From assembly GCA_947591215.1 (NCBI GenBank), contig CANQCZ010000016.1:1-33149 (forward strand): a DNA stretch of 33,149 nucleotides, read 5' to 3'. The translations under genes and the position numbers were made by a program. Below are positions 5,404 through 29,049 of this stretch, piece after piece (position 1 is the first letter of the stretch; every line of letters begins with the position of its first letter). The notes beneath the pieces are model-generated. The model searched no databases. It had not been told where the DNA came from and was given only the letters and a program-made list of their open reading frames with translations. This DNA is from an uncultured Bacilli bacterium. Its GTDB lineage: Bacteria; Bacillota_I; Bacilli_A; RFN20; CAG-449.

Positions 5404-7245
5404 TCACATCTGATGATTATAATGGACAATTGTTTCGGAGGTTAAGGCACAGATTGAAAGACCTTTAATTGTGTGCCAAGTATCCTCACTGCCGGTATAA
5501 TAAATATCATCTAACATGTTACAAGCAGCGAATACATCTTTTCCAAACTCTAATAACCCCTCATAAATCGTTAAAGCAGGAAGATTAATGCAATTGTAAA
5601 AAACTTCATTACTTATTTTTGTGACGCTACTAGGAATGTTTACTTCTTGAAGAAGAGCACAATTTTCAAATAAACTATCTTCTAAAACCACTAAATTCGG
5701 GGGTAAATGAATACTTATCAAGTTTTCCATACCCTCAAATGCCGACTCTCCAATAGATAAAACAGAGTCTGGAATATCTAATTCATAGACATTTTTGCAA
5801 AAATAAAAGGCATATCCTTCAATTGTTTCAATCGTCTCTGGTAAATCGATACCGGTTAAAGAACTACACCAATAAAAAGCATCTTCCTTAATGATCTTTG
5901 TTTGGCTATAAATATTTATTTTTGTTTTTGTTTGCGGTATGCGAAACAACGAACTATAATCTTTGCTATATAATGCTTCGTCATAAACACTATAATGGTC
6001 ATTTTGATCAATGATAAATTTTTGTAAATTATCTAATTGAATTAACGCTCCTTCACCGATTTCTTTCAAAGCGTCGGGAATGTAAAATTCTTTTAACGAT
6101 ACACAATAAGCAAAAGCAAAGTCGCCGATGGTTTCAATTTGATTTGGCAATTTAAGATCAGTCAATTTACGGCAATTATAAAAGGCGCGCGATCCAATCA
6201 TTGTAATGGTATTCGGTAAATCTAAAGTTTCTAAATCTTGGCAAAACTCAAAAGTTTTATTCGGAATTTCAGATATCTTACCTAAAATTTGAATTTCTTT
6301 TAATTTGGACTCAAAGAAGACTTTTTCTTCCAACTCTTTTATAGATGGAGGAAGAATAATCTTATTACAATTTGCTAGTCTAGAAATCGATTCTGATTTT
6401 ACTTTTTCCACTGTGTCTTTAATTGTTACCTCTTTTTTTCCTTCCGGTACTTTTATTAAGATTCTTTCATTTTGTGAATATAATATTCCGTCATATGCCA
6501 TATATTGTTCGTTTAACGCGTTAACTGAAAAAGCGTTTAATTTTTGACAAAGATGAAAGTTATCTTCACGTATAAAACTTACATTATTTATGGAAAGATT
6601 AACTAAACTTGGATCATAATAAAAAGCTGCTCGTTTTAATGAGTAAGTAGCACTTGGAATATTAACGCTACATAAATTTGAACAACTATTAAAAGCGTAT
6701 TGATCGATTACTTGTACTGTTTTTGGGAGAACTACTTCTTTCATATTACATTCCATAAAACAAGCTTCACCAATTCTTAAAATTGGTAAATTATTAAACG
6801 TTTCAGGAACAATCAAGGTATCAATAAAATCGAAGTTGTTATACTTATATATTTCATATCCTATAGTTTTTAAACTATCATTCTCTATTTCATACATTGC
6901 CCGATATGTGAAATCGCCACGATTGATGGGATTTTTAGTTTCGATAATATGAAATATCGGCTTAATTTCTTTATCTTCACCAATATTGCTTAGAGATTCA
7001 TTCCATTTATAAAAATCATAATAATATGTCTTTGTGTTTGGAGCTTTCCGTGTCGGCTCCTCACCTTCATAAAATACACTTTCGTGATCTTTTACCATAG
7101 TAGAAAATAGTATCGAACCATCGTAATCAAAAAAAGTTACATTATGGGTGTTTGTCGAGAGAATTGATGTCATACTTGAATCTGTACTATTTTGACAAGA
7201 GCATAATAGTAAAAGTAAAATTCCGGTGTTTAAAATCTTTTTCAT
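5404..7245 (-). CDS. BspA-like leucine-rich-repeat lipoprotein
   Basis: 613 residues. The signal peptide MKKILNTGILLLLLCSC gives lipidated Cys17. Residues about 32-100 resemble the Listeria-Bacteroides (InlB B-type) repeat (VTFFDYDGSILFSTMV...). From about 140 to the end run LRR_5 repeats of the BspA type, each with a variant of ..I...AF..C..L..I.LP..., for example IGSRAFYNCRKLTDLKLP and IEGYAFYFCKNVYELDIP. BspA-like proteins of oral and gut bacteria and of trichomonads bind host or bacterial surfaces; a binding role here is inference. The ATG overlaps the stop of the upstream lipoprotein gene (ATGA, 7242-7245), so the two are translationally coupled. GAGG lies inside the upstream gene about 13 bases before the start. 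Confidence 0.88.
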   Translation of the reverse strand: MKKILNTGILLLLLCSCQNSTDSSMTSILSTNTHNVTFFDYDGSILFSTMVKDHESVFYEGEEPTRKAPNTKTYYYDFYKWNESLSNIGEDKEIKPIFHIIETKNPINRGDFTYRAMYEIENDSLKTIGYEIYKYNNFDFIDTLIVPETFNNLPILRIGEACFMECNMKEVVLPKTVQVIDQYAFNSCSNLCSVNIPSATYSLKRAAFYYDPSLVNLSINNVSFIREDNFHLCQKLNAFSVNALNEQYMAYDGILYSQNERILIKVPEGKKEVTIKDTVEKVKSESISRLANCNKIILPPSIKELEEKVFFESKLKEIQILGKISEIPNKTFEFCQDLETLDLPNTITMIGSRAFYNCRKLTDLKLPNQIETIGDFAFAYCVSLKEFYIPDALKEIGEGALIQLDNLQKFIIDQNDHYSVYDEALYSKDYSSLFRIPQTKTKINIYSQTKIIKEDAFYWCSSLTGIDLPETIETIEGYAFYFCKNVYELDIPDSVLSIGESAFEGMENLISIHLPPNLVVLEDSLFENCALLQEVNIPSSVTKISNEVFYNCINLPALTIYEGLLEFGKDVFAACNMLDDIYYTGSEDTWHTIKGLSICALTSETIVHYNHQM

Positions 7246-18718: not shown

Positions 18719-19780
18719 TTAAGATTTTCTTATATTAACTTCATTTAGTACGGTAAGTAATTCGTCTTCTGTTTTAAAGAGAGGGCCATTGCATAATTGA
18801 TGAAAAAATAATTCGCCATAGAAAAAATTAGATTCGATTAAAATTATGTCATCATTTTCATCAATAGCAAAATCCCATGATATAAGTCGTGAAAAATTAA
18901 TTTTGGAATGCAATTCGATTGCCTTATTAAGGATTTCTTGAAATTTTGGAACAATAATTTCATGGTAATTAACATTACTATTTTTAGTATCAATTTTTTT
19001 ATAAACTTTTGGCTTATAAACAGCTTCTTTTAATCTTCCATCTGACTCTACTCCTATAACTAGTCCTCCGCTACAAGCATTATCTACTTTCTGACCTTCT
19101 TCACCAAATCTAACAATTGTTGACAAACATTTAATACCTTGTTCACTCTTGAAGGTCATCACTCTCACAGTATTAATTGAGGATTTATTTAATTTTGCCA
19201 TTATAGGAGATTGTTTAATTACTCTTTGAATAATTAAATCACGATGATTTTTTTCGAATTCCTCAAAGTCTTTATTTAATTCATTATAAAATTTGACACC
19301 ATGTCCGCCTGCAGATTCACATGCAATTTTTACCACAAATTCTTTTTCTTTAATCAATTCTTTCTTTAAATCTGTTAAGGAGACTACTTTATCATCTAGA
19401 TACCAAAAGTTATCTACTTTCATAGCTATAGTTTCTGGAAGTTTTACATTTTTAAAATAAATGTTATAAAAACATTTATTATCCAAAACTTTCAATTTAA
19501 CCCAATTATTATAATAATAATCAATGAATCTATAATGAAAAGAATCGGGAATGTATAGTTTATTAACTTCTCCACTCATCGCATAATATTTAATATGTTC
19601 ATACCCTTTATAATTTCGATCATATTTTTTCCAAAATCTTTTAATTTCATTAAATTTTTGTTTTGGCATTAATTTCTTAGAACATTTACAAAGATTTTGT
19701 TCTCCTTCATATATCCAATTAATTCTAGTTAAATTTATTTTTTCAATAATTTTATTTTGCAAATTGCTAATTATATTCAT
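18719..19780 (-). CDS. Sugar-transfer-associated ATP-grasp protein (second paralogue)
   Basis: 353 residues, related along the whole length to the product of 530-1630: IMAKLNKSSINTVRVMTF here against IAKLNKTSLNTFRVITY there, DNACSGG against DNAHQGG, and ISWDFAIDENDDIILIESN against INWDLTINDKNEIILIEAN. Lys and acidic residues expected for ATP-Mg binding are retained (FVVKIA near residue 150; IESN near the end). A carboxylate-amine or similar ligation on an envelope glycan is the usual guess; substrate unknown. A Cys pair CKCSK near residues 30-35 is not seen in the other copy. AAAGGAG nine bases upstream supports the start. The gene has its own strong promoter and terminator, so it is monocistronic, but lies next to a flippase gene. 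Confidence 0.75.
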   Translation of the reverse strand: MNIISNLQNKIIEKINLTRINWIYEGEQNLCKCSKKLMPKQKFNEIKRFWKKYDRNYKGYEHIKYYAMSGEVNKLYIPDSFHYRFIDYYYNNWVKLKVLDNKCFYNIYFKNVKLPETIAMKVDNFWYLDDKVVSLTDLKKELIKEKEFVVKIACESAGGHGVKFYNELNKDFEEFEKNHRDLIIQRVIKQSPIMAKLNKSSINTVRVMTFKSEQGIKCLSTIVRFGEEGQKVDNACSGGLVIGVESDGRLKEAVYKPKVYKKIDTKNSNVNYHEIIVPKFQEILNKAIELHSKINFSRLISWDFAIDENDDIILIESNFFYGELFFHQLCNGPLFKTEDELLTVLNEVNIRKS

Positions 19781-19996: not shown

Positions 19997-21535
19997 TTAT
20001 TTAATAGATTTCTTTTTTACTTTAGATAAAAAAGAATTTATTATTAAAAAAAGAAATTTATCCCTTAAAATTAATAAACAAATAAAATATATTAAAATAC
20101 CTTCTAAAATAAGAAGAAAAGTATTTAAAATACTAGGAGCTAAAAAACTTTGCACCCAATAAACACAGATAAACATAATGAGTCCGCTAATAAGATATTT
20201 CCAATTATTAAATAAAATATTTTTCAAAGAAACATCTTTTCTTGCAAAATACAACATCACAAGAGTTATGGATAATTCCGCAGAGATTGTTGCAATACAA
20301 GCACCAATTGACCAATAAAAGGTTATTAAAAAAAGATTAAGTACAAGATTTACTATAGCGCCAAAAGTAACAGAAAATGTATATTTATTATCCATTTTCA
20401 AAGGTAATAAATATTGAATACCTAAAACATTACTTAATCCAATAATAATAGCAAGCGGTGATAAAATCATTATTAACATTGGCACTTTATCATATCCTGG
20501 CCCAAAAAACCAAGGCGAAAAATTTGAAGCAATGGCAGATAATCCAAACATTATTGGCACTCCAAGGAACATAACAAAATTAATGGCAAGGTGAATATTT
20601 TTTCTAAAAGTATCAAATTTTCCGTTTGAAATTATAAATGAGTTTCTTTGTATCATAACAGCTCCCATTGCTGTAATAACTGTTATAACTAATTTTACTA
20701 TTTTTTCAGACTGCACATAATAAGCGACTTCTATATCTGCCATATTTTGAATAGTTTGACTTCCATCAGATGCAATTTCTACAACTGTTTGAGGAACTAG
20801 TATTCCGATAAGTGTTCTATCTAGAATAGTATAAATAGATGTTGCTATGGTTGGAATAAATAGTTTTATGGTTGGCATAATATGTCTTTTTATATTTAAT
20901 TCACGAAAATTTACTTTTTCGATAAATTTTGGAAGATTAGGCCATAATGAAATATTTGCAACGATAGTAATCACAGAATATAAAAAAGTATATAACCATA
21001 AATCTGTTTCGTTTTTAACAAATATAAAAATTAATGTTAAGCCTAAAATTTTTATAAGAATATTTTTTACAGTAAGAATTCCAAATTTTTCTATTCCTTG
21101 AAATAAATAAGTTAGATCAAAGGCAACTGCAATAATATTAATTGATAATATACTTAATAAAGTTTTTTCACTAGAATCAAAATTTCCAAAAACGATTAAT
21201 AAAAAAAACAATATTAAAGAAATTATTACTGAAAATAATCTAGCAAAAAATATTTCCCAAAAAATTATAGTCTGCTCATGTTTATTATTTTGCTGTCTTG
21301 CAATTTCGCGTTTTGCATATGTTACAAAACCTAATGATGCAAATAATATGAAATACGAAGTAATTGAATATAGAAAAGAATATTGCCCTATCCCAACTTT
21401 ACCTAACACTCTAGAAATATAAGGAGTAGTAACTATCGGTATTAAAATTAAAAAAAGATCATTTATTAAAAAAAAGAAATAATTTTTTTTTACACCATTG
21501 TTTTTCTGTTTTGTTGATAAAATATTTCTTGCCAT
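19997..21535 (-). CDS. Wzx-type polysaccharide flippase
   Basis: 512 residues with about fourteen transmembrane segments. The N-terminus LIPIVTTPYISRVLGKVGIGQYSFLYSITSYFILFASLG is the hallmark of Wzx/PST flippases of the MOP superfamily, followed by YAKREIARQ. These proteins turn lipid-linked glycan units across the membrane for surface polysaccharide or teichoic-acid-like polymers. No polymerase (Wzy) or glycosyltransferase lies nearby, so its substrate must be built by enzymes encoded elsewhere. AGAGGTG five bases before the ATG supports the start. Neighbours are the ATP-grasp gene downstream and, after a 635-bp gap, the FkbH-like gene upstream. Confidence 0.9.
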   Translation of the reverse strand: MARNILSTKQKNNGVKKNYFFFLINDLFLILIPIVTTPYISRVLGKVGIGQYSFLYSITSYFILFASLGFVTYAKREIARQQNNKHEQTIIFWEIFFARLFSVIISLILFFLLIVFGNFDSSEKTLLSILSINIIAVAFDLTYLFQGIEKFGILTVKNILIKILGLTLIFIFVKNETDLWLYTFLYSVITIVANISLWPNLPKFIEKVNFRELNIKRHIMPTIKLFIPTIATSIYTILDRTLIGILVPQTVVEIASDGSQTIQNMADIEVAYYVQSEKIVKLVITVITAMGAVMIQRNSFIISNGKFDTFRKNIHLAINFVMFLGVPIMFGLSAIASNFSPWFFGPGYDKVPMLIMILSPLAIIIGLSNVLGIQYLLPLKMDNKYTFSVTFGAIVNLVLNLFLITFYWSIGACIATISAELSITLVMLYFARKDVSLKNILFNNWKYLISGLIMFICVYWVQSFLAPSILNTFLLILEGILIYFICLLILRDKFLFLIINSFLSKVKKKSIK

Positions 21536-24360: not shown

Positions 24361-25737
24361 CTAAACATTAACTTTTTTGTAACCTTTGTTTAACTGAATG
24401 TCAAATTTATTTAATTTCTCGGCAATTTCGAGGATATAATTAGTAATCACACTGCTGCAAGTTTCATCAATTTTACGCGCTGCTTTGGCAATTACTTCAC
24501 TATTTGATTTAATACTATCAATTTTACTTCTTAATGTATCTAAAGGTTTATCCAAATACGTTTGCTTTAATTTATTAAACAGTTCATTTAACTCAATCAT
24601 ACTTCTTAATTCAATTTTTTCTTTCTGTTCCGCAATGATAAGATTAGAAAAACGAGACGTTAAAGAAGTGAGCATATTTAAAAAGGTCATCATATATGCT
24701 GGTCTTACTACATACATATCTTCGTATTCACGAACTTTATATATCGGTAAATCGTTAGCTTTATCACTTTCTAGATTAGAAACTAAAAGTGCATATTTGC
24801 ATTGTTTCTTTTTTCGGTTTTTATCGAGGGCACCAAAATAATCTTCATTTTTCTTTTTTATTTTAGAAGTGGGGTTTTCATCTTTCATTTCTAAACATAC
24901 CGAGGCCAACAATTCCGAATCCACATGTTGATCGTTAGCAAAAATTTTAAAGATATAGTCCGCTTTGCTTCCCTTAGTTTCATCGTCCTCTTTAATTACT
25001 TCGTTATCTTTAACCCAAGTGCAATTTAATAATCCGTTTTGCATATAAGATTTGGCCTCATTATCGCACCAAATTTCCAAGTCTTCGCCGGTTTGTTTGA
25101 CATTTAAAATGGATTTTTGACGCTGTAATTCATTGATTTTGTCTTCTATGTTTTTTAGTTCTTCAATCTTATCCGCGATCGCGCGATCGTGCAACTCTTT
25201 GTTTTTGTTAATAATATTGTTATATTCTATTTCTTTATTTTTTAAAGCGAGTTCATGATCACGATTTAATCTTTCAATCGATGCTTGCAATTCTCTAATT
25301 TGACTTTCATATTTTTGCTGCAATTTCAATGATTCATTTTCAATTTCAACTTTTTTGGTATCTTCCAAAGACTTAATGCGATGATTTAAATTAGCAATTT
25401 CACTTTGATGTTCTAATTGCAATTTATTCAATCGCATATTCAATTCAACTTCCCCGTCTTTTTTGGTTTCGTTGATTTTAGCCTCTAAAGTTTCAATTTT
25501 TCTTTTATATTCTGTCTCCAATTGTTTCTCTTTTTGCTGATGAAGATTTTCTAACATCTTTTTATTTTCTTCAATCCGTTTTTGATATTCTAGTTCCTTG
25601 CCATTTTTTAAAGCTTCGTCAATCGCCGCAAAATCAATAGAATTGATCGTGGCTAGATCAATTAAGTCTCCTTCATTAGCATTTTCTTGTAAAACTAACG
25701 TATTCTTATCTCTTACAATAACCTTAATGTATTTCAT
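24361..25737 (-). CDS. DUF2130-type coiled-coil protein with PD-(D/E)XK-like domain
   Basis: 458 residues. A short N-terminal β/α segment (1-40) is followed by a long coiled coil (about 45-205) rich in Lys, Glu and Leu. The C-terminal domain fits DUF2130: GEDLEIWC (helix with Glu221), GSKADYIF (Asp260), CLEMKDE (Glu283, Lys285), then KKKNEDYFGALDKNRKKKQCKYALLVS. The spacing E...D...ExK is that of PD-(D/E)XK nucleases and recalls RmuC-like proteins. Nuclease activity is inferred, not shown; the natural role of the family is poorly known. The start at 25737 is set by AAAGGAGT six bases upstream; twelve extra upstream residues are possible but lack a ribosome site. A small acidic gene precedes it by 65 bp, probably in one operon. 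Confidence 0.8.
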   Translation of the reverse strand: MKYIKVIVRDKNTLVLQENANEGDLIDLATINSIDFAAIDEALKNGKELEYQKRIEENKKMLENLHQQKEKQLETEYKRKIETLEAKINETKKDGEVELNMRLNKLQLEHQSEIANLNHRIKSLEDTKKVEIENESLKLQQKYESQIRELQASIERLNRDHELALKNKEIEYNNIINKNKELHDRAIADKIEELKNIEDKINELQRQKSILNVKQTGEDLEIWCDNEAKSYMQNGLLNCTWVKDNEVIKEDDETKGSKADYIFKIFANDQHVDSELLASVCLEMKDENPTSKIKKKNEDYFGALDKNRKKKQCKYALLVSNLESDKANDLPIYKVREYEDMYVVRPAYMMTFLNMLTSLTSRFSNLIIAEQKEKIELRSMIELNELFNKLKQTYLDKPLDTLRSKIDSIKSNSEVIAKAARKIDETCSSVITNYILEIAEKLNKFDIQLNKGYKKVNV

Positions 25738-25802
25738 TTGATTACTCCTTTCTTTAAATCGTCGCTTTGTCAACTATTTTAAAATGAAACTTTTCAACTT
25801 TT

Positions 25803-26060
25803 TTATTTACGCTTTTTTCTTTTTTTCGGTACTTCCGGCTCATCGATTTCTTCATATCCTTTGGTTTTTTGATCCTCAGGACTCATCGCCAAGAATTCAG
25901 GTGTTAATTCATAACCTAAAATTTGAACACAATCACTCAATTCATCAATGGTTAACTTACCATCTTGAAACATTAAATAAAGGATTGCCAAAATATCGTC
26001 GTCATCGTTGCCTTCAGCTTTCAATTCATCAAAAACTTTTTTTATTTCTGTTACTGTCAT
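25803..26060 (-). CDS. Small acidic protein with basic tail, partner of the DUF2130 gene
   Basis: 85 residues, not recognised. The N-terminal ~65 residues are helical and strongly acidic (EGNDDDDILAILYLMFQDGKLTIDELSDCVQILGYEL), with the look of a small helical adaptor; it ends in PKKRKKRK, a very basic tail that could bind nucleic acid or the acidic part of a partner. AAAGGAG six bases before the ATG makes it a confident gene despite its length. It is followed at 65 bp by the DUF2130 gene with no terminator between, so co-transcription and a functional link are likely. Confidence 0.75.
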   Translation of the reverse strand: MTVTEIKKVFDELKAEGNDDDDILAILYLMFQDGKLTIDELSDCVQILGYELTPEFLAMSPEDQKTKGYEEIDEPEVPKKRKKRK

Positions 26061-26254
26061 TTTTTCTCCTTTAAATACTTTTTATTATCAAAATCAATGA
26101 TAAATATGGTGTTGATTTTATTAAAGCAAAAAAATTTAAGTAATAAAAGGGCTGGCTATTAAAATTGGTTTCAATAATTTAAAAGTTAACCATTATATAA
26201 TATATACTACGTATAATTATATAACAGATAAAGTTTTTATTCATTATGTTATTT

Positions 26255-27052
26255 TCACAAGACATTAAATAAGAGAGAATATCCCCACATTCTCGTGGGT
26301 TCAACACTGTTTTTATATTTTTCTTTTACAATTTCTAACATTTTTTGATCTATTAATTTTAAATATTTATTTAAGTTTTTTGAACCTAGTGCATCATAAT
26401 ATTTCTTTTCGCCTCTTTCAAAATATATTCTTGGGGTAATACCGAAAGCAACTTTAATTGTATTAACCTTAATGTATCCCTTTTTTGGATCCGCTTTTTC
26501 AATCGTCCACAATAATCCTTCCATATCCAACCAAAATTGCATATATGGCAATTTTATATATTTAAGACCAAGTTTTTCAGCAGTCTTTATGCATAATTGG
26601 TAATTATTTTCATCATTTGCTGAAATAAATAAAAGATCTCTAAAATTATTTTTTGAATGTGCCTTTGTCCATTTGTTATTTTCGATTATACCTAGATTAA
26701 TGAGATACTCGACTTTTAAAGCATAAATGCTTGCAAAGATCAGTCGATGATCGTTGACTTTTTTTAGATATAAAATAAGTTGTTCCGTCTTTTTTTGACT
26801 TTTTTTCGCGTTTGTTATTAGAAACGAATATTCCATAGCATCAAAAACTTTTCCGGTTTCTAAATCGATTTCAAATTTAAAACAATAACCACGATCATTG
26901 ACTACGTCGTTGATGCAATATATGAAATCACGATTAAAGTGATGTTTTTTGATTAAATTTTTGCATTTGTTACATATTGCTTTTTCCGACAAACGTTCTT
27001 CATTTTCATATATATCAAATAAAGCTGATATTTCATCATAATAGTCAAGCAT
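26255..27052 (-). CDS. Conserved-looking hypothetical protein, second of a tandem paralogue pair
   Basis: 265 residues, soluble, no signal peptide, function unknown. CNKCK near residues 27-31 is the only metal-ligand-like motif. It aligns with the product of the adjacent gene 27053-27934: KKTEQLILYLKKV...LIFASIYALKV here against KATNELISYLHDL...LIFLGMQQIKV there, and later M(E)..LL...N(T).KV.F. The ATG directly follows the stop of that gene (TAAATG) with GAGG as ribosome site inside it, so the two are translationally coupled. Confidence 0.75.
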   Translation of the reverse strand: MLDYYDEISALFDIYENEERLSEKAICNKCKNLIKKHHFNRDFIYCINDVVNDRGYCFKFEIDLETGKVFDAMEYSFLITNAKKSQKKTEQLILYLKKVNDHRLIFASIYALKVEYLINLGIIENNKWTKAHSKNNFRDLLFISANDENNYQLCIKTAEKLGLKYIKLPYMQFWLDMEGLLWTIEKADPKKGYIKVNTIKVAFGITPRIYFERGEKKYYDALGSKNLNKYLKLIDQKMLEIVKEKYKNSVEPTRMWGYSLLFNVL

Positions 27053-27934
27053 TTATTTTACCTCGCTATCCGCAATAAATGCGTAGTATAACGCCATATA
27101 GCCATTAGGATACATACCATCTACCAAATATGGGTTATCTTTTAAATGCCTTTTTAATTTAGACAACGCACCGGTCGTAAAAACTCCGCGATCTTGGTAA
27201 TTTTTTAAAATTTTTCTAGGAGATTTATGCAAATCATAATAATCGCTTTTTCGAAGATGGTCTTTACTTAAAACCAAAAACTTAACTTTCAGTGTATTTA
27301 CCTCTTTTTTAGGAAGTACATGAAGCAAGTTTTCCATTAAAAAGAAAAATTTATTAGTCGCGTCGTTTAAATCAAACCCAAGCGAATTTTCCGCTTTTAA
27401 AAAATCAATTAACTTATCCCTTAACTCCTTTTCATCCGCCAAAAAATGTGGCGAACCGATTAAATCAATCATCAAATCGTATAAATTATGAATCTTTTTT
27501 TTCTTAATATATTCCATCATTTTTTCATTTAAACGTAATTTGGTGTTTTTGACTTTGATTTGCTGCATTCCTAAAAAAATGAGATTTACTTCTTTCAAAT
27601 CGTGAAGATAACTGATCAATTCATTTGTAGCTTTGATTGATTTAGCGGCTTGTTTTGCTATCCAATAAAAATAATTTGAATTAAAAAAAACTTCTTGCTC
27701 TTCGTTTTCAAATTTTTTTGCTAGATGAACTATTGTCGATTGATATCTAAAATATCGCTTTTGCTCCGGTTTGCTTAAAAGGTAAAACTCACTAGGAAGA
27801 ATAATGTTTTTAGAATCTAATCTCTTTTTTAATTCATCGATATTGATTTTATTGTCGACGAATAATCGATAAGTATTTGTAAAAAATGATTTCATATTAT
27901 CTTTTTTTATCGACTTGTTTATCTTATTTACCAT
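27053..27934 (-). CDS. Hypothetical protein, first of a tandem paralogue pair
   Basis: 293 residues, soluble, Lys-rich, function unknown. Helical by composition; the central part (about 95-150) and the C-terminal part (about 190-275) align with the next gene's product. No catalytic motif was recognised. The start is uncertain: neither ATG 27934 nor the in-frame ATG 27895 (giving 280 residues) has a Shine-Dalgarno. It begins 23 bp after the stop of the phosphatase lipoprotein gene on the same strand without a terminator between, so co-transcription is possible. Confidence 0.7.
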   Translation of the reverse strand: MVNKINKSIKKDNMKSFFTNTYRLFVDNKINIDELKKRLDSKNIILPSEFYLLSKPEQKRYFRYQSTIVHLAKKFENEEQEVFFNSNYFYWIAKQAAKSIKATNELISYLHDLKEVNLIFLGMQQIKVKNTKLRLNEKMMEYIKKKKIHNLYDLMIDLIGSPHFLADEKELRDKLIDFLKAENSLGFDLNDATNKFFFLMENLLHVLPKKEVNTLKVKFLVLSKDHLRKSDYYDLHKSPRKILKNYQDRGVFTTGALSKLKRHLKDNPYLVDGMYPNGYMALYYAFIADSEVK

Positions 27935-27957
27935 ATGTTCTATAATCTATAAACTGA

Positions 27958-29049
27958 TTAAATTTCTTCAATAAAAATATTTTTGATATTATCGATATCG
28001 GTTTTGGAAACACCGATGCTAATTAGATGATTATATATTTTGTTAGAAAGTTTATCGCCCTCGGTTTTGTTAATGGTTTCAACATAATTGTATTTAATAT
28101 TATTTAAAGTTCTTATTCCGCCGATTAAACCAAAATTTGAAAATAAATAATCATAATACAAGTCATCTTCCGCCACTCCCAATAATCCATTTAATAAATA
28201 TGCAATCATTCCGGTACGGTCAGTTCCAATATTACAATGAAAATAAAGAGGATAATTATCTTCATGCGCTAAAATATCCGAAAAGATATGTCTTACCATC
28301 TCTTGGTTAACCAATAGAATATTATTTTGCCAATACATCGGGCAAGAAAGGTATTGAACCGCATCTCCAAGAACGCTTGAGGTAATAGAACCGATTTCAT
28401 TATCGTCAATAGTGCGTAAATCCATCTCCGATTTAATTTTTAAATCTTCAAGCAAAACTCTTTTTCCTTCCTCGGTAACCTCTTTGCTTATTTGATTAGA
28501 GAAAGAGGTATTTAGCCTACCACCTCTAAATAACAGGCCTTGTTTAACACGATGATTGCCGTCAATTTTCCATCCACCGACATCACGCACGTTAGTGATA
28601 CCATCAACTTTTAAATTCCGTGGACAATCATCGACAACTTCAAAAGTTTCAGGAGCCGTTTCAACTTCTATATCTTGAAGATCTGAAGTGACTTTCCAAT
28701 AATATTTAGTTCCGATTTTCAAATTATAAATAGAAGCAGTAGAATCCAAAGTGCGAATTGTAAAACAATTGGAAAAATCTTCAAATTCACTGATCAAAAC
28801 ATTGTAATTTGCTGTTTCATCTTTGTCTAAAGTCCATGTTAACTCTATCGGTTCCGGTTGACTTAACTCTTGTCGGCCATCAGCATATTTGGTAATATTT
28901 GAAAAATCATCATAAAGAAAATTATCTTGTACTTCAGTGTGAATGTGCACTTTTCGTGACAAATTATTGGTTGGTGAAGAGCATGAAAGCAACATCCCTC
29001 CTATAAAAAAAATTACCGATAAATATGAATGCTTTAATTGAGTTTTCAT
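27958..29049 (-). CDS. Lipid-anchored tyrosine/dual-specificity phosphatase with FN3-like domain
   Basis: 363 residues. The signal peptide ends in lipobox LLSC (lipidated Cys23). Residues about 65-138 look like an FN3-type domain (IELTWTLDKDETANYNVLIS...GTKYYWKV). The catalytic domain (about 142-355) belongs to the Y_phosphatase3 family: NVRDVGG (153-159), RGGRL (175-179), and the P-loop HCNIGTDRTG with nucleophile Cys272 and Arg278. Such enzymes remove phosphate from tyrosine residues or phosphoinositides. As a surface lipoprotein it would act outside the cell, on extracellular proteins or on host or environmental substrates (inference). AGAGG eight bases upstream supports the start. Confidence 0.88.
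   Translation of the reverse strand: MKTQLKHSYLSVIFFIGGMLLSCSSPTNNLSRKVHIHTEVQDNFLYDDFSNITKYADGRQELSQPEPIELTWTLDKDETANYNVLISEFEDFSNCFTIRTLDSTASIYNLKIGTKYYWKVTSDLQDIEVETAPETFEVVDDCPRNLKVDGITNVRDVGGWKIDGNHRVKQGLLFRGGRLNTSFSNQISKEVTEEGKRVLLEDLKIKSEMDLRTIDDNEIGSITSSVLGDAVQYLSCPMYWQNNILLVNQEMVRHIFSDILAHEDNYPLYFHCNIGTDRTGMIAYLLNGLLGVAEDDLYYDYLFSNFGLIGGIRTLNNIKYNYVETINKTEGDKLSNKIYNHLISIGVSKTDIDNIKNIFIEEI

Follow-up and report, generated by a model that had tools for sequence, protein, structure and literature searches.

A tightly coupled pair of paralogous genes from an apparently undescribed family, candidate subunits of an accessory heteromer in Bacilli

Translational coupling of neighbouring genes requires overlaps or very short distances between them, and short overlaps are enriched among genes for the subunits of heteromeric complexes, as reported by Huber et al. 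(2023; PMC10666635). The title of a further study (PMC6941341) presents the conservation of adjacency as an imperfect predictor of interaction. The gene pair analyzed here lies within a 33,149-nucleotide stretch of DNA from an uncultured Bacilli bacterium, the whole of which is referred to as the window. Its arrangement is of this known kind, whereas the family that it encodes is apparently undescribed.

Both genes are located on the minus strand. The upstream gene P0001 (27053..27934) encodes a protein of 293 amino acids that consists of a small N-terminal domain and a helical core, and the downstream gene P0002 (26255..27052) encodes a protein of 265 amino acids, in which an unrelated N-terminus of its own precedes the common helical core. 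Homologues of both are present in the same four other genomes, the weakest P0001 homologue being that of G036 (E 6.8e-8). The TAA stop codon of P0001 occupies positions 27055-27053 and is directly followed, in the same frame, by the ATG of P0002 at 27052; positions, lengths, and the abutting start and stop codons are exactly as an earlier, sequence-only reading of this DNA had given them. Inside the 3' end of P0001, eight nucleotides ahead of the P0002 start, a GAGG motif can be read (27061..27064, minus strand), which resembles a ribosome-binding site for P0002, and a purine-rich stretch upstream of the P0002 start can be read in all five carrier genomes. The distances between the two genes in these genomes amount to 0, 0, +1, -20, and -8 nt, which in every case is short enough for termination-reinitiation. 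Comparison with the congeneric copies of G003 yielded dN/dS values of 0.19 for P0001 and 0.21 for P0002; both genes are under purifying selection. A weak hairpin at 26284..26299 (minus strand), within the 3' end of P0002, may be due to chance; it is included in the three terminator-like sites that were found, compared to 1.7 expected from shuffles, and the 3'-end motif around it is single-copy in the genome. The region 25700-28100 gave no match in Rfam.

As far as the searched libraries show, P0001 and P0002 represent an undescribed, rare family. The best Pfam hits reached 14.5 bits against a cut-off of 25 for P0001 and 15.3 against 27 for P0002, NCBIfam yielded no hit and PHROGs no convincing match for either protein, and PADLOC matched neither of them nor the product of the next gene downstream, P0003. 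The sequence-only reading had likewise recognized neither protein, and its alternative that the two belong to distinct known families found no counterpart in Pfam or NCBIfam. A sequence search against solved structures (PDB) gave a single, unconvincing match for the P0002 family (E 0.035) and none for P0001, and the full-text literature returned no paper on this family, which has no name to search by. AlphaFold2 predicted P0002 to be all helical, with a mean pLDDT of 76.5 and a pTM of 0.65 from a six-row alignment, the five models spanning 41 to 76; the model of P0001 is poor (mean pLDDT 59.7, N-terminus below 50). Foldseek and VIA-align searches with both models led to no convincing match to a known family and neither identify nor exclude a fold. 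For the P0002 model, the best Foldseek hit had an E-value of 1.2 (prob 0.09), and the best VIA-align hit (Z 6.4, rmsd 2.6, 63 residues aligned) covers the N-terminal residues 1-64 only. Armadillo, HEAT, and TPR solenoids were among the matches listed for the core models but cover parts of these models only.

A tandem duplication had been proposed for this locus, with the two products aligning over most of their length. BLASTP of P0001 against P0002 gave an E-value of 8e-6 over 164 columns, and the profile-profile alignment of the two five-member families, which had been suggested as a check, proved significant with an E-value of 2.4e-10 over 184 columns, aligning residues 83-284 of P0001 (27083..27688, minus strand) with residues 68-262 of P0002 (26267..26851, minus strand). 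In whole-genome searches the P0002-family profile recovers P0001 in its own genome (E 3.1e-9), and the P0001-family profile recovers P0002 (E 7.5e-6). When the pairs within each genome were compared with shuffled sequences, the real score exceeded all 300 shuffles in four of the five genomes, whereas in G036, which has the most diverged pair, the observed score was reached by 9 of 300. In both cores 12 helices are predicted, which could be matched by eye in the same order; the core of P0001 is modelled at a pLDDT of about 70-90 at residues ~91-180 and less well toward the C-terminus, and profile self-comparison detected no internal repeats in either core. The N-terminal 67-82 residues of the two proteins show no detectable relation in the profile comparison (E 0.26). 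An assignment of the P0002 N-terminus as another copy of the small domain found at the N-terminus of P0001 was considered as well and found no support in the profile comparison (prob 10%, E 0.0033). The proposed duplication is thus borne out, and the alignment claimed for it holds for the core of about 200 residues but not for the N-termini. Judged by these comparisons, P0001 and P0002 are true paralogues over the helical core, beyond what chance would produce. Since the paralogy is limited to the core and the N-termini are unrelated, the event was a duplication of the core with different N-termini.

The small N-terminal domain of P0001 is also made alone, which was absent from the earlier account. 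P0003 (25803..26060, minus strand), which follows P0002 after a gap of 194 nt, encodes an acidic protein of 85 amino acids that is a stand-alone copy of the helix-loop-helix domain at residues ~12-60 of P0001 (27755..27901, minus strand). In hhalign comparisons with the P0001 N-termini, P0003 alone gave an E-value of 1.8e-5 and a seven-member small-domain family one of 7.5e-9. In G006, whose pair is 32-43% identical to that of the window, the gene directly downstream of the pair (L018 7323-7550) encodes the small domain as well; in G057 the small gene and the pair are on different contigs, and G036 yielded no such gene. The link between P0003 and the pair is a loose one, since many genomes that lack the pair have relatives of P0003 and the small gene does not stand beside the pair in G057 and G036. 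Within the order, 15 of 274 genomes contain the small domain at E <= 0.001, or 13 if two doubtful matches are set aside, namely an HMA-like ORF in G029 and a match inside a large helicase-like ORF in G038, both of which look false on reading. Small-domain genes were found in three of the four genera with the pair versus 12 of 56 (p 0.028), an enrichment that we do not lean on, as some of the sequences in the profile came from pair genomes and the two doubtful matches are counted among the 12.

Against the PDB, the small-domain profile matched myosin regulatory light chain (E 3.5e-4) and, more weakly, sorcin, troponin C, and calmodulin, but designed helical repeats outscore these EF-hand proteins. 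The single-sequence search was weak, with troponin C as the best EF-hand match (E 0.066), and the P0001 N-terminus is modelled at a pLDDT below 50. A canonical EF-hand loop is 12 residues long, and its positions 1, 3, and 5 are acidic; in a gapless alignment with troponin C, read by eye, the small domain has non-acidic residues before the DG. Similarity to the SHOCT domain stayed below the Pfam cut-off and concerned one of the seven family members (E 0.072). The small domain might be a degenerate EF-hand-like helix-loop-helix without being a member of the EF-hand proteins. At other loci of the order (L075, L076, L077, L079, L080, L081, and L085), small-domain genes are often clustered with genes for macro-domain proteins, at 7 of 11 grouped loci in a count made without a background control, and some small-domain loci also hold genes for ADP-ribosylglycohydrolase (in one case fused to DUF1810), SIMPL/DUF541, UvrD helicase, and DUF2130 proteins. 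These clusters could be an ADP-ribose-related accessory island.

In the window, P0003 is followed after 29 nt by a gene for a DUF2130 protein (24361..25773, minus strand; Pfam E 9.4e-34), an order that is preserved in G001 and G003, and a gene for a protein of the tyrosine phosphatase family (27958..29049, minus strand; Pfam Y_phosphatase3, E 3.7e-26) ends 23 nt before P0001. The window also encodes a BspA-type leucine-rich-repeat protein (5404-7245; Pfam LRR_5, E 6.6e-86) and two sugar-transfer-associated ATP-grasp proteins (362-1630 and 18719-19780; Pfam PF14397), the second of which adjoins a polysaccharide flippase-type gene (19997-21535).

Among 147 related genomes, P0001 was found in five and P0002 in six, whereby the sixth (G001) holds a remnant of 29 codons. 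The P0002-family profile matched 6 of 279 genomes of the order, the G001 remnant included, and 7 of 395 genomes of the class sample, where two extra matches were spurious; the P0001 profile matched 4 of 392 genomes of the phylum sample. No new credible carrier was obtained at either of the two wider levels. The spurious class-level matches (G297 and G400, E ~4e-4) lie near a LytTR-like ORF in one case and near or in ABC-transporter ORFs in the other. In all five carriers, two of which are congeneric, both genes are adjacent and in the same order. A search for single-copy relatives, as had also been suggested, yielded no intact one in the order and class samples with the P0002 profile, nor in the phylum sample with the P0001 profile. 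G001 was not counted as lacking the pair, its contig C35 ending within the upstream phosphatase gene. What remains of P0002 in G001 and on contig C39 of G003 are truncated copies and not intact single genes: the last 29 codons persist at G001:C24:8254-8340 and G003:C39:8206-8292 (L020 and L021), upstream of the P0003-DUF2130 block and beside leucine-rich-repeat ORFs. By eye, the large repeat ORFs flanking these remnants resemble the leucine-rich-repeat gene of the window. The intact pair of G003 is located on a different contig from the remnant, so that a rearrangement must have broken the block, and the position of the remnant ahead of P0003-DUF2130 in both genomes shows that P0002 and P0003 were formerly adjacent there, too.

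It could be that P0001 and P0002 form independent homo-oligomers, or are lineage-specific proteins, which stay together only through a common promoter and inheritance as a block. The high divergence within the family and the differing N-termini would be compatible with this; however, neither gene was found intact alone in the genomes searched, although the pair seems to pass from family to family and has been disrupted in places, and the coupling is retained in four different geometries, so that we consider such independence unlikely. A heterodimer, as proposed in the sequence-only reading, can reasonably be inferred, as all five carriers have both genes, in an unchanging order and coupled. 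Of that proposal, the duplication, the tight coupling, and the absence from known families stand as observed, and the dimer itself is a plausible candidate.

The pair and ribosomal protein L1 have discordant histories. By L1, the window is closer to G006, a member of the same family, than to G057 from another family (80% versus 70%), whereas P0001 is 50% identical to its homologue in G057 versus 32% in G006, and P0002 63% versus 43%. This conflict makes it most likely that the pair moved horizontally as a unit; an old duplication followed by differential loss would be a less likely but still tenable history. Between G000 and G003 the pair is 88% identical versus 99% for L1, which means that the pair changes faster. 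In P0002, residues 41-80 are especially divergent from G003 (23 of 40 identical), and residues 201-265 are identical. These features, together with the patchy distribution and the presence of the small domain in phage head modules (see below), would also suit an unrecognized anti-phage defence module located in variable regions, consisting either of a sensor and an effector or of two structural subunits. In G036, moreover, a gene for a UvrD-like helicase of 953 amino acids with an HRDC-like N-terminus (L083 5238-8099), which scores against the PADLOC GajB models, lies just upstream of the pair, but UvrD-like helicases are common and such scores therefore unspecific. Neither the pair of the window nor those of G006, G036, and G057 gave a PADLOC match, no nuclease or other effector family was matched, and no defence neighbours common to the five loci were seen. 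The phage and plasmid collections contained no match to the pair either, and scans of viral contigs with degenerate patterns from both family alignments revealed no relative of P0001 or P0002. We therefore regard a defence module as an improbable explanation. The G036 locus further encodes, near the pair, a stand-alone RNA polymerase alpha C-terminal-type domain of 98 amino acids (L083 393-689; Pfam E 1.3e-15).

A coupled small operon with a patchy distribution and an acidic neighbour might also suggest a toxin-antitoxin-like system, in which P0001, P0002, or P0003 neutralizes another of the products, and the pI of P0003 is indeed 4.5 compared to ~9-9.5 for P0001 and P0002. This charge difference is not conserved, however, as the homologues in G036 are acidic, and relatives of P0003 exist without the pair. 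The partners of usual toxin-antitoxin pairs are not paralogues of similar size, whereas P0001 and P0002 are, and no toxin family was matched in Pfam or NCBIfam. Such a system thus appears very improbable.

P0003 itself had no match in the phage and plasmid collections, and viral contigs contain relatives of it (57% over 75 residues). In the three contigs with sufficient sequence (L047, L052, and L074), a scaffold-type ORF lies on one side of the small gene and a major-head ORF on the other. For L047 and L074, PHROGs identified the flanking genes as those for the head scaffolding protein (phrog_2303) and the major head protein (phrog_422), whereas those of L052 were assigned by similarity only; in L048 the scaffold side is present and the contig ends within the small gene. 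That a domain is common to the bacterial pair and a phage head-assembly block is the unexpected part of this analysis. The small domain might be a head-assembly domain that is traded between phages and bacteria, and a P0001-P0002 complex could, together with P0003, dock on assembling heads and block or sense them, which would amount to a capsid-assembly-directed defence without a known family. We consider this idea a long shot.

Our preferred explanation, to which we give a probability of about 0.5, is that P0001 and P0002 form a fast-evolving accessory heteromer whose ratio is set by coupled translation and for which the fold of P0003 serves as a docking domain. Duplication of the all-helical core would have given rise to the two subunits of one complex. 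Both would be translated from one message, P0002 by termination-reinitiation at the stop codon of P0001, which would fix their ratio, presumably at 1:1. The shared core would hold P0001 and P0002 together, while the differing N-termini would bind differing partners, that of P0001 acting as a putative small docking domain. P0003, as a free copy made alongside, may share the partner of the P0001 N-terminus or act as a regulator of the complex. As a whole, the module would be accessory, as it is rare and fast-evolving and was probably passed between families as a unit. If this is right, an undescribed family joins the known pattern of duplicated subunits that are kept as a coupled heteromer, and a bacterial accessory module would be tied to a small domain retained by phages within the gene block for head assembly. 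If it is wrong, the locus nonetheless offers a clear-cut case, from Bacilli with small genomes, of a paralogous pair that is mobile and evolves fast.

Compared with known systems, P0002 is like the designed armadillo, HEAT, and TPR helical-repeat folds in being all helical, but the matches are weak and its core, in contrast to these folds, shows no internal repeat. The link of the small domain to helix-loop-helix proteins of the EF-hand and troponin C type consists in its profile matches, the calcium ligands in the first half of the loop being missing. The phage head module with phrog_2303 and phrog_422 encodes a relative of P0003 between these two genes, but the phage small proteins have a long acidic tail, unlike P0003, and phage sequences yielded no P0001-P0002 pair. 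Known counterparts also include the coupled gene pairs for heteromeric subunits described in PMC10666635. From these, P0001 and P0002 differ in being paralogues of an undescribed family with a putative complex, and they share with them the zero or near-zero distance, the common strand, and the conserved gene order.
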